Source: Ekhidna lutea
GTDB lineage: Bacteria > Bacteroidota > Bacteroidia > Cytophagales > Cyclobacteriaceae
DNA length: 64,000 bases
Direction of reading: 5' to 3'
Assembly: GCF_900188325.1 (NCBI RefSeq)
Contig: NZ_FZPD01000005.1
Location: 124,001 to 188,000, forward strand
The stretch's first letter is position 1, and every line of letters begins with the position of its first letter. Positions 61,069-64,000 of the stretch are shown piece by piece. Under the pieces are notes generated by a model that saw only the letters and a list, made by a program, of their open reading frames with translations, did not search any database and was not told where the DNA came from. A program made the translations under genes and the position numbers.

Positions 61069-61484
61069 CCATCCCAAACTACAATGAAGAAGAGCTACAA
61101 GAGGTAGCCCGAAAACTAATCAGCAACTTTGGACACCTCAAAGTGTGGTGCTTTGATGCGGAGATGGGTGCAGGAAAAACCACGTTGACGAAAGCAATTT
61201 GCAGAGAGTTAGGGGTGCAGGATGAGATGAGTTCACCTACTTTCTCCATTGTGAATGAATACCTGACGGACAAAAACCAGGACATTTATCACTTCGATTT
61301 TTATCGATTGAAGGACATGGAAGAGGCCATGGATATTGGTGTGGAGGATTACCTTTTTTCGGGAAATCTGTGTTTGCTGGAATGGCCTCAGATTATTGAA
61401 CCACTATTGCCGGATGAATACCTGCAAATAAACATTAAATTAGTAGGTGATAATACCCGATCACTAACTGCTCAACCTAAATGA
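61065..61484 (+). CDS. tsaE: tRNA threonylcarbamoyladenosine biosynthesis ATPase TsaE
   Basis: Small ATPase that powers TsaD/TsaB in making t6A37 on tRNAs reading ANN codons; 139 residues. Walker A EMGAGKTTLTKA (34-45), SSPTFSIVNEY with the switch threonine, FYRLKDMEEAMDIGVEDYL, and LLEWPQIIEPLLP, all typical. It overlaps porX by four bases and the ald gene by four bases (ATGA in both cases), so the three are translationally coupled. Confidence 0.95.
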   Translation: MTIPNYNEEELQEVARKLISNFGHLKVWCFDAEMGAGKTTLTKAICRELGVQDEMSSPTFSIVNEYLTDKNQDIYHFDFYRLKDMEEAMDIGVEDYLFSGNLCLLEWPQIIEPLLPDEYLQINIKLVGDNTRSLTAQPK

Positions 61485-62707
61485 ACGAATCGTCGAAATC
61501 CGGATTTGCAAAGCTTGCGCAAGAACAAACGCTTTACCCTCAGGAAGCGCCCGCTAAAATCTCAAAGAAGCATCAATCAATGCAAATAGGAGTACCACAG
61601 GAGATTGCTGATCAGGAAAAACGCATGCCAATCAAACCTTCATCAGTAGGTGTACTGGTTGCAAATGGTCATGAGGTACTGGTAGAGTCCGGAGCTGGGG
61701 AATCAGCTAATTTTTCAGACGATGAGTATAGCGAAGCGGGAGCACAGATTGCCTACAGTGCCAAGGAGGTCTTTGAGTGTCGGACGGTACTTAAGGTAGA
61801 GCCGCCAACCATCAAGGAAATTGAAATGATGAAACCGGGGAGCACACTTATTTCTGCGTTTCAGGCTGGGAAGCAAAACACAAAATACCTGGAGGCTATC
61901 AACAAGAAAAAGTTGATTGCGATTGGCTATGAATTCATTGAAGATAAAGTGGGAGGACTGCCTCTTGTTCGTGCGATGAGCGAGGTGGCCGGAAGTACGG
62001 TAATGATCATAGCGGCTGAATATTTAAGCAGCGCCAACAATGGGAGAGGAGTGATTCTGGGAGGAATCACCGGAGTGCCACCCACACGCGTAGTGATCAT
62101 AGGTGCCGGCACAGTGGCTGAGTTTGCTGCCAGAGCAGCATTGGGTCACGGAGCTGAAGTTCGGGTCTTTGATAATCAGATTTACAAGATGCGAAGGCTG
62201 AAGCATTCCCTTGGACAGGAAATCTATACGTCTACCTATGATGAGGCATTGCTGAAGAAAGAAGTTCAGGAAGCAGATGTGCTAATTGGGGCCGTACGCT
62301 TTGAAAAAGGAAAAAGTAAGATGCTGGTGACCGAAGATATGGTGATGAGCATGAAACCCGGTTCGGTCATCATAGATGTAAGCATCGACCATGGCGGATG
62401 CATCGAAACATCTGAACTAACGAATCATAAAAAGCCGGTCTTTGTGAAGCATGACGTGACACACTACTGCGTACCTAACATTGCTTCGCGGGTAGCTAGA
62501 ACCGCATCACTCGCGATCTCGAACATCTTCACCCCGATCTTACTGGAAGCAGGAGACTGTGGAGGATTTGACGAGATGATCTACACCCATCGTTGGCTGC
62601 AAAAAGGTGTGTACTCCTACAAAGGCACCTTGACTAACCTCGCCCTCGCCAAGCGCTTCAACCTGGCATTTAAGGATATCAGTTTATTTATGGCGGCTAG
62701 GATATGA
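61481..62707 (+). CDS. ald: Alanine dehydrogenase
   Basis: Oxidative deamination of L-alanine to pyruvate with NAD+; also pyruvate amination. The 408 residues are about 35 longer than classical Ald because of an N-terminal lead (FAKLAQEQTLYPQEAP) seen in Bacteroidota members. The family body starts at MQIGVPQEIADQEKRMPIKP; the glycine loop VVIIGAGTVAEFAARAALGHG (about 207-227) binds NAD, followed by AVRFEKGKSKMLVTEDMV and VIIDVSIDHGGCIETS with the catalytic Asp. The gene ends the porX-tsaE-ald unit; the neighbouring cassette is on the other strand. (Glycine loop quoted in part: VVIIGAGTVAEFAAR.). Confidence 0.93.
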   Translation: MNESSKSGFAKLAQEQTLYPQEAPAKISKKHQSMQIGVPQEIADQEKRMPIKPSSVGVLVANGHEVLVESGAGESANFSDDEYSEAGAQIAYSAKEVFECRTVLKVEPPTIKEIEMMKPGSTLISAFQAGKQNTKYLEAINKKKLIAIGYEFIEDKVGGLPLVRAMSEVAGSTVMIIAAEYLSSANNGRGVILGGITGVPPTRVVIIGAGTVAEFAARAALGHGAEVRVFDNQIYKMRRLKHSLGQEIYTSTYDEALLKKEVQEADVLIGAVRFEKGKSKMLVTEDMVMSMKPGSVIIDVSIDHGGCIETSELTNHKKPVFVKHDVTHYCVPNIASRVARTASLAISNIFTPILLEAGDCGGFDEMIYTHRWLQKGVYSYKGTLTNLALAKRFNLAFKDISLFMAARI

Positions 62708-62713
62708 ATAGAA

Positions 62714-62848
62714 TTATTTACTCTTTTTTGGAGGAGGAGATGTAGGTGTTCTTGATGTAGGAACTTGTCCTTTAATAACTCCGCTTTCACTTCTTTTTAC
62801 GGTACCACCTACATTGGATGGTTTTCCTGATGGTTTTTGTTTAGCCAT
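62714..62848 (-). CDS. Tiny proline/lysine-rich protein (44 residues)
   Basis: A 44-residue ORF from ATG 62848 to TAA 62714. It begins MAKQKPSGKPSNVGGTVKRS and ends with TPTSPPPKKSK; nearly half the residues are Lys, Ser, Pro or Gly, so it is probably disordered. It starts eight bases before the end of the membrane-protein gene (overlap 62841-62848), which points to translational coupling. The sequence has no close match that I recognise with certainty, but a small Pro/Lys-tailed protein beside a two-helix membrane protein is a pattern I have seen in other Bacteroidota. Partner of the broken gene upstream. Confidence 0.6.
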   Translation of the reverse strand: MAKQKPSGKPSNVGGTVKRSESGVIKGQVPTSRTPTSPPPKKSK

Positions 62849-63331
62849 ATCTGTTATTAAAATATAATTTTTCTTCTCTATCAGTTTTTTCTAATAATTT
62901 GGGTATTTGTCTAACGTGTACTTCGTTATCAAGTTCTTCAATTTTTTCTTTAATATCAGATCTGAGTGCGAAAAATGATTCTGATGCCTGATTTTCATTC
63001 ATGATTTTATTTTCAAAATCACTCCATAGTTTCTCTAATTGATTGAAGTATTTTAAATACAGATTTCTCAATGAGCTTATTTTTAACAACTCCTCATCTG
63101 ATTTGATTATTTGATTTTCGATTAGATTAATCAATTGTATTAAGGCTATTATTATACATGCTATTAAAGCCACAGGCTCCCAAATTGACCAACCAAAAAC
63201 ACCACCTCCTGAAAAAATTAGTGTAAGAATTTTATATTTTTTTTAATATTCTTACACCTATTGATATAATTAGCTAGATATAGTTCTCCGTACTTGGCGT
63301 CAACCAATTCATACCAAATTTTATTTCTCAA
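62841..63331 (-). pseudogene. Membrane and coiled-coil protein gene broken by a frameshift in an A8 tract
   Basis: Two consecutive frames that together make one protein of about 163 residues. Frame 1 runs from TTG 63331 to a stop at 63218 and encodes KIWYELVDAKYGELYLANYI and RCKNIKK. Frame 2, read without a start codon from about 63234, continues YKILTLIFSGGGVFGWSIW and then a hydrophobic helix (VALIACIIIALIQLINLI), an ENQIIKSDEELLKISSL segment and a helical tail. The switch falls at eight A residues (T8 at 63237-63244 on the plus strand); one more A would restore the frame. A GTG at 63173 opens frame 2 as a 110-residue ORF. The gene may be inactive, phase-variable, or a sequencing error. Family not identified. 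Confidence 0.6.
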
Positions 63332-63424
63332 CTTTTATAGGTTTTCTTAAAGTTAAGAATTTTATCTCAACAGAGGTAGTTGTGATTGACCCTTATATTT
63401 TTAGATACTAAGCGAGACGGCCCT

Positions 63425-63512
63425 GTCATTTCGACGATAGGAGAAATCTTTACTTCTAGCCATTAGAGATTCCTCGTTCCCTGCCTTTGTCGGCAGGCAG
63501 GCTCGGAATGAC
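63425..63512. repeat. Family B repeat, copy 3
   Basis: GTCATTTCGACGATAGGAGA, then AATCTTT and AGAGATTCCTCGTTCC, ending GGAATGAC. Contains an inserted CTGCCTTTGTCGGCAGGCAG stem that the copy at 33762 lacks. Confidence 0.72.
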
Positions 63513-63538
63513 ATCCAGAACAAAGTATTGAGGTTATT

Positions 63539-63614: not shown

Positions 63615-64000
63615 CTATAAAGAAGCCAAACTCTCCTCCAGCGTCTTCACTTTAGCCTCAGCATCGGCCAGTTTTTTTCGCTCCATGGCTACCACTTGCT
63701 CAGGGGCACCATTCACGAACCTCTCATTGGAGAGCTTTTTCTCCACAGACTTCATGAAGCCTTTCGTGTAGTTCAGCTCTTCCTCGATCTTCTTCTTTTC
63801 CGCTTCAATGTCGATACTCTCTGTTGCCGGAATGAAGAACTCATCCGATCCCACAACAAAGCTGAATGCATTGGCTGGCTTATCTCCTGATTTAATTTCG
63901 GAAATGTTTGCCAGCTTCTTCAACGATTCGTCAATGGAATCCACAACACTGCTATTAGTCGTCAACTCAAATGTCTCCTTAGGTGAGATACCCTTTGAAC
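63615..64000 (-). CDS. valS: Valyl-tRNA synthetase, C-terminal fragment at window edge
   Basis: Charges tRNA-Val. Only the last 128 residues are inside the window; the frame is still open at base 64000 and includes SPKETFEL before the internal segment, as in ValS. The C-terminal coiled-coil arm is clear: VVGSDEFFIPA, then IDIEAEKKKIEEELNYTKGF, VNGAPEQVVAMERKKLADAE and KTLEESLASL, the tRNA-binding arm of this enzyme. The gene begins outside the window on the minus strand and ends at 63615, just after repeat elements. A TTG at 63965 is internal, not the real start. Confidence 0.93.
   Translation of the reverse strand, partial: SKGISPKETFELTTNSSVVDSIDESLKKLANISEIKSGDKPANAFSFVVGSDEFFIPATESIDIEAEKKKIEEELNYTKGFMKSVEKKLSNERFVNGAPEQVVAMERKKLADAEAKVKTLEESLASL

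Follow-up and report, generated by a model that had tools for sequence, protein, structure and literature searches.

Toxin-antitoxin pairs with a membrane-acting toxin consist of two small genes that abut or overlap, stand alone and occur patchily, and PrrC, an anticodon nuclease, serves as a back-up system beside type I restriction-modification genes. According to sections of the report on DRT10, defence by this system requires a SLATT protein, for which the authors suggest a pore restrained until infection (PMC12632851). Sections of two further papers describe SLATT as a pore-forming effector in other conflict systems (PMC7159879) and mention that some DRT9 systems have an adjoining SLATT (PMC12483538). 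SLATT effectors are already known, but their pairing with a small proline-rich gene is apparently undescribed: Pfam, NCBIfam, PADLOC and PHROGs yielded no SLATT-like family that comes with a Pro-rich peptide gene, and no description of such a pair was found among the open-access papers listed.

The window considered here, a stretch of 64,000 nucleotides of the Ekhidna lutea genome, carries next to valS an accessory cassette (Table 1), probably the broken representative of a module of two genes that is widespread and in which a SLATT-like membrane protein gene is followed by a small Pro-rich gene. The pair probably acts together in anti-phage defence, and our best explanation, to which we assign a probability of roughly 45%, is a plug-in membrane effector that would be controlled by a disordered partner.

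Table 1. Features of the cassette and its flanks, in window coordinates.
Feature	Position	Strand	Remarks
Membrane gene, N-terminal part	63218..63331	-	TTG start, 37 codons plus stop; aligns with P0001 residues 1-31
Membrane gene, remainder, -1 frame	62841..63242	-	Stop at 62841, open back to 63242; hydrophobic stretch plus helical tail; P0001 and 34 relatives align here
A8 run, site of the frame change	63237..63244	-	
Imperfect inverted repeat around the A8 run	63216..63262		19-nt arms, 84%; not conserved in relatives
Pro/Lys-rich partner gene	62714..62848	-	44 aa, ATG; 8-base overlap with membrane gene end
Intergenic part with dispersed genome repeats	63420..63525		Flank, outside the cassette
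valS 3′ end	63615..64000	-	Flank; Pfam Val_tRNA-synt_C
Alanine dehydrogenase/PNT-type gene	61481..62707	+	Convergent flank; Pfam

The preliminary description had proposed that two reading frames, linked through an A8 tract, form a single protein with a hydrophobic region and a helical tail. An intact relative, P0001 (HUW51_RS00240, 161 aa, annotated as hypothetical), which is encoded on a plasmid of Adhaeribacter swui, bears this out. It spans both pieces, with 49% identity to the N-terminal one (opening residues MRNKIWYELVDAKYGELYL) and 37% to the C-terminal one, and it is ungapped at the junction, so that the two frames represent one protein beyond what chance would give. The helical, membrane-type nature of this protein is likewise supported by the alignment and by a predicted model (see below). 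Sub-cut-off Pfam matches of the window fragment, such as Spectrin_7, FlxA and GP41, look like coiled-coil noise. The 44-residue ORF overlapping the 3′ end of the membrane gene by eight bases is also present as described, and its sequence is MAKQKPSGKPSNVGGTVKRSESGVIKGQVPTSRTPTSPPPKKSK.

The 110-aa window fragment alone gave no confirmed relatives in either genome_contigs (207 pattern matches) or viral_contigs (32 pattern matches), and comparison of the downstream window fragment with 97 other related genomes gave one weak match of 42 residues. The Adhaeribacter plasmid protein was the first relative found, with the downstream fragment as query. Within the class, 4 of the 394 further genomes have relatives, which also occur in more genomes across the phylum and on two proteobacterial plasmids. 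Two collection scans together yielded 43 loci from several phyla, namely 36 places in genome contigs (from 112 pattern matches) and seven in IMG/VR (from 140 pattern matches). Judged by their record titles, the genome-contig loci include Gamma- and Alphaproteobacteria, Burkholderiales and Desulfobulbaceae, as well as Bacteroidetes, Clostridia, Nitrospirae, Planctomycetota and Chloroflexota. When 34 relatives and the window piece are aligned, three tryptophans are invariant and the core reads SSxSIAxWxIW ... W..IIA.SQ.

Three candidates were left out as too weak (L003, 48% over 42 residues, E 9e-4; L017, 39 residues; L018, E 0.004), while L057 was kept in the counts despite its weak similarity (34% across 65 residues). 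L012 duplicates L008, L039 duplicates L007, and L002, L005, L010, L013 and L019 are the window itself. The partner count described below covers 41 of the 43 loci, 37 of them intact and four broken, with L050 (= L049) and L058 (= L033) omitted; as it includes L039, L007 was not counted again. A gene was called intact when its frame reaches the C-terminus; the N-terminal stretch is partly missing in L045, L048 and L063, and L051 was counted as intact although no start codon was found.

For the partner count we considered ATG-initiated ORFs of 30-90 aa that start between -30 and +30 nt from the stop codon, and the most Pro-rich one was taken, for control ORFs likewise. The preliminary description had suggested looking at whether the small gene always follows homologues of the larger one. 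A partner with at least 8% Pro trails 36 of the 37 intact genes, compared with 25 of 370 other ORFs at the same loci, which is the layout of a two-gene module (a SLATT-like gene, then a small Pro-rich ORF). With a threshold of at least 15% Pro, such a partner remains behind 24 of the 37 genes, compared with 5 of 370 controls. The window copy has the same layout, with gene 1 broken. Behind the 36 intact genes the partners start at offsets of -11 to +27 nt and measure 34-87 aa. Six more intact relatives (L004, L008, L014, L015, L020 and L021) have a small Pro-rich ORF when inspected by eye, that of L015 being 23 residues long, and all 43 intact genes, L063 included, have a partner ORF. Among the eight broken membrane genes, which were found by eye, the partner is kept in four (window, L016, L038 and L052) and gone in the other four (L006, L009, L027 and L055).

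The 38-aa Pro-rich partner of Adhaeribacter swui (MAGKSTQSSSKKDQGKKEVKGNVPKMRNPPPPPKANKD), which begins 13 nt past the stop codon, is missing from the gene table of its plasmid, where locus tags run unbroken; in two other plasmid records, a locus tag is skipped at the partner position, as in the Methylotuvimicrobium record, so that the partner may be annotated there. pN (0.11-0.29) lies well below pS (0.39-0.87, often saturated) in five pairs of partner genes, three of them drawn from the same three loci, and the partner ORF is thus a real gene. Distances between membrane proteins and between partners correlate (Mantel r 0.54, 0 of 2000 permutations, n = 36), as common descent alone could also bring about. 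The partners have a median length of 47 residues, on average 18.9% Pro and a median net charge of +4 (range -19 to +16). Most of those aligned show a hydrophobic residue plus Pro, then six or seven residues and a PxPx stretch; a pattern PMPxVKPP is present in 19 of 37, poly-Pro in eight and neither in ten.

Some partners depart from this general picture. That of L063 (offset +12 nt) has 74 aa and 4% Pro, with a hydrophobic N-terminus resembling a membrane anchor followed by KKPIPMG, and the partner ORFs of L026 and L045 are acidic rather than basic. A second Pro/Lys-rich ORF of 42 aa lies between the DUF6119 and membrane genes at L007:1360-1488, so that two such ORFs flank the membrane gene, and three tandem small ORFs, each bearing a SIFPxF-like motif, lie behind the membrane gene of Methylobacterium oryzae plasmid pMOC4 (L021:5489-6086).

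The larger protein is related to SLATT proteins by several weak signals. With E <= 0.1 as limit, the NCBIfam model SLATT_4 matches 14 of the 35 members, the lowest E being 4.7e-10, and SLATT_1 matches six; the Pfam model SLATT_4 matches two of 35 (best 0.035), and the PADLOC 2TM effector and RT-SLATT models give weak matches with a few members. When ten members were scored singly, six had SLATT_4 E values <= 0.01, but none of the ten passed the curated cut-off of 55 bits, the best being L059 with 39.5 bits; P0001 reaches 20.5 bits. The predicted model of L022 is all-helical (pLDDT 93.2), and two hydrophobic helices, TM1 and TM2, can be read off the alignment and the model. Among the 50 matches listed for this model in the BFVD library of viral structures, ten are named SLATT or SMODS/SLOG-associating 2TM, with probabilities of 0.96-1.00 and a best E of 4.2e-3; no structure matched at E <= 0.001, whether among all matches of the viral library or among solved structures. 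Matches to CdvB, BAR domains and the like among solved structures, including those of the PDB, reflect general helical arrangements and were set aside as unspecific. An hhalign comparison with a two-sequence alignment of sub-cut-off SLATT_4 hits gave a probability of 0.7%. We therefore call the larger protein SLATT-like, and likely a divergent SLATT relative on the strength of profiles and predicted structure, but leave it outside the superfamily proper, because the profile scores are below cut-off, the structure matches have E > 0.001 and the hhalign probability is 0.7%. Note also that a Pro-rich ORF of 30-90 aa was found behind none of 11 SLATT_4/SLATT_1 control hits, which represent ten places, some of them doubtful (L077 and L084 are the same place, L078 and L081 resemble membrane proteins of other kinds, and L085 was left out).

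The genomic site of the pair varies between loci. Out of 266 called flanking proteins, 19 hand-picked ones were scanned, and their restriction, caspase, Fic and HEPN types agree with the earlier view of an accessory gene pair that often adjoins defence genes. Caspase-domain proteins adjoin the pair in L043, L046 and L052. Restriction-modification neighbours comprise a C5 methyltransferase (L037), a type I R protein (L048), type II enzymes (L009 and L049), a methyltransferase with a type II restriction enzyme downstream of the pair (L056) and an adjoining relative of type III R (L006). A Fic protein (PDC-S24) is separated from the pair by two genes in L004, a NERD protein lies 252 nt from the pair in L047, and further neighbours are HEPN AbiU2-like (L021), PIN (L044) and DUF6119 (L007). 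None of the 19 neighbours scanned is a SLOG protein, a cyclase or a reverse transcriptase. Housekeeping-type neighbours, named by eye, are dnaN (L008), metH (L014), tatD (L024) and, in the window, valS; of the 26 ORFs that lie upstream on the same strand at no more than 400 nt, several look housekeeping or spurious. The caspase-domain protein of L046 (L046:4151-5902), located 80 nt ahead of the pair, is also the PADLOC candidate PDC-S65.

In its own genome the cassette is present as one copy. valS was found in nine of ten genomes of the genus, own included, and no match to the cassette was found in up to 1.5 kb beyond valS at any of the eight sister loci (of which L068 is short and L067 has 767 bases masked). 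A single sister locus (L070, genome G001) also shows the alanine-dehydrogenase flank, and two other sisters have unrelated sequence past valS. In L070, an ORF of 261 aa (L070:710-1495) that by eye resembles an ion channel (TVGYGD) stands between valS and alanine dehydrogenase instead of the cassette. The cassette had also been described as flanked by repeats, a view that did not hold: the repeats lie on its valS side, are dispersed over 11 places across this genome and do not bound the cassette, and the idea of a repeat-mediated insertion was dropped.

In the explanation that we prefer, gene 1 would encode a membrane-perturbing or pore-forming immune effector, a SLATT-like protein of about 165 aa predicted to be all-helical and to comprise TM1, TM2 and a tail that is also helical. 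Directly behind gene 1, or overlapping it, gene 2 would supply a peptide of about 47 aa, usually Pro-rich and probably disordered, that carries a common short motif. We infer that this partner binds the gene 1 product and either restrains it or determines how it is gated; an infection, detected directly or through a neighbouring system of the restriction, caspase, Fic or HEPN type, would then release the effector, and growth arrest or cell death would follow. We favour this explanation because the helical SLATT-like protein, the coupled peptide, the exchangeable immune neighbours and the patchy occurrence all fit it. An antidote role for the partner suits its universal presence with the 43 intact genes and its retention in four of the eight broken ones, small though these numbers are. 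However, many copies adjoin housekeeping-type genes, and the spread of partner charge from -19 to +16, with the acidic ORFs of L026 and L045 and the membrane-anchored type of L063, also counts against an effector of this kind. Tentatively, the pair may constitute an unrecognised immune module that crosses phyla, in which a disordered Pro-rich peptide would gate a SLATT-like, death-inducing membrane effector that works alone or beside varied systems. Restriction enzymes, caspases, Fic, HEPN, PIN and DUF6119 proteins would then be the systems that it is plugged in beside, the peptide gene perhaps being small enough to miss.

The partner could instead be a required co-effector or assembly factor that links the membrane protein to a sensor, a phage component or an envelope target, a possibility that we regard as doubtful. 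Its near-universal presence with intact genes, its co-divergence with them, the resemblance of the C-terminal PxPx motif to a docking motif, and the additional small ORFs of L021 (three in tandem) and L007 (ahead of the membrane gene) would all suit such a function, but four of the eight broken genes keep an open partner ORF, which would be needless for a pure co-effector, although these copies are few and the breaks may be recent. It is very improbable that bacteria acquired the pair from phages as a lysis or envelope module, with a holin-like protein and its regulator: the pair does occur on seven IMG/VR contigs, and in L033 (3.8-9.6 kb; Clostridium ljungdahlii; = L058, also in IMG/VR) it lies near genes that by eye are endolysin- and holin-like, but two queries gave no match in 50,697 phage records, PHROGs gave one weak match to a non-lysis family, and 36 of the loci stem from genome contigs.

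As for the window copy itself, gene 1 has most likely been inactivated through the -1 frame change in A8, with gene 2 still open. The preliminary description left the choice between a dead and a phase-variable gene, of which the former is the likelier; phase variation is unsupported, since among 43 genes of relatives, a set that includes broken and duplicate copies, none has an A/T run of at least 8 near the matching codon and the hairpin at the run is unconserved. Seven-base A/T runs occur near codons 28-35 in three relatives, and 8-base runs only near codons 131-135; a tract kept at the switch point in relatives, characteristic of phase-variable genes, is thus not seen, although strain-private phase variation can occur. 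A8 runs are frequent here, the 64-kb window containing nine A8/T8 runs plus one A10. A functional gene, from which ribosomal -1 frameshifting, transcript slippage or phase variation at A8 yields some full-length protein, is quite unlikely. The -1 change does lie exactly within A8, the zero frame reads A_AAA_AAT there, which we take to be of the slippery type, the remaining frame stays open, and the hairpin has an RNA z of -2.90 (2 of 200 shuffles were equally good). Yet in the matching region of relatives z <= -2.9 was reached in 0 of 36 cases (mean 0.02, lowest -2.36), no run of at least 8 stands at that place in the 43 genes, the A8 run is located within the loop of the inverted repeat or at the loop's margin and not ahead of the hairpin, and the other broken copies have different break points. 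A programmed frameshift (A_AAA_AAT plus hairpin) was ranked low, neither run nor hairpin being conserved. The TTG start of the window gene is weak evidence in this respect, because the broken relative L016 has TTG too; start codons among 39 relatives' genes are ATG in 37 and TTG in one, with no start found in one. An assembly or sequencing error, which would leave the gene intact in the cell, is unlikely as well: a single-base difference within a homopolymer and a draft genome of 16 contigs would be in keeping with it, but this genome is rated 99% complete, and of the eight A8/T8 runs elsewhere in the window, three sit within open ORFs (of 146 and 874 aa).

If the module functions as we propose, a widely used bacterial membrane effector would have a small obligatory partner, and tests of the membrane gene only would therefore leave out half of the system. 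Restriction-modification and bacterial caspases would moreover be linked through one common effector, and the module would provide a compact example of how a disordered peptide can control an effector.

The closest known relatives are the SLATT proteins (NF033632 SLATT_4 and NF033634 SLATT_1; PF18186 and PF18181), which likewise consist of helices throughout, two of them hydrophobic and others forming a tail, have immune genes as neighbours, and give weak profile and structure matches to the proteins described here. The latter differ from them in scoring below the cut-offs, in having their own small partner gene, absent behind the 11 control hits, and in the absence of SLOG or cyclase proteins among the 19 neighbours scanned. 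DRT10, which according to its description combines the UG17 reverse transcriptase and an ncRNA with SLATT, resembles the proposed module in its required SLATT-type membrane effector, whereas the pair described here has a small Pro-rich partner, with no reverse transcriptase among the neighbours scanned. PrrC-type back-ups resemble the pair as an extra gene by restriction genes (L037, L048, L049, L056, L009 and L006), but the protein here is of membrane type and not an anticodon nuclease, and it has non-restriction neighbours too. With toxin-antitoxin pairs that have a membrane-acting toxin, the pair shares the abutting or overlapping arrangement, the stand-alone occurrence and the patchy distribution.
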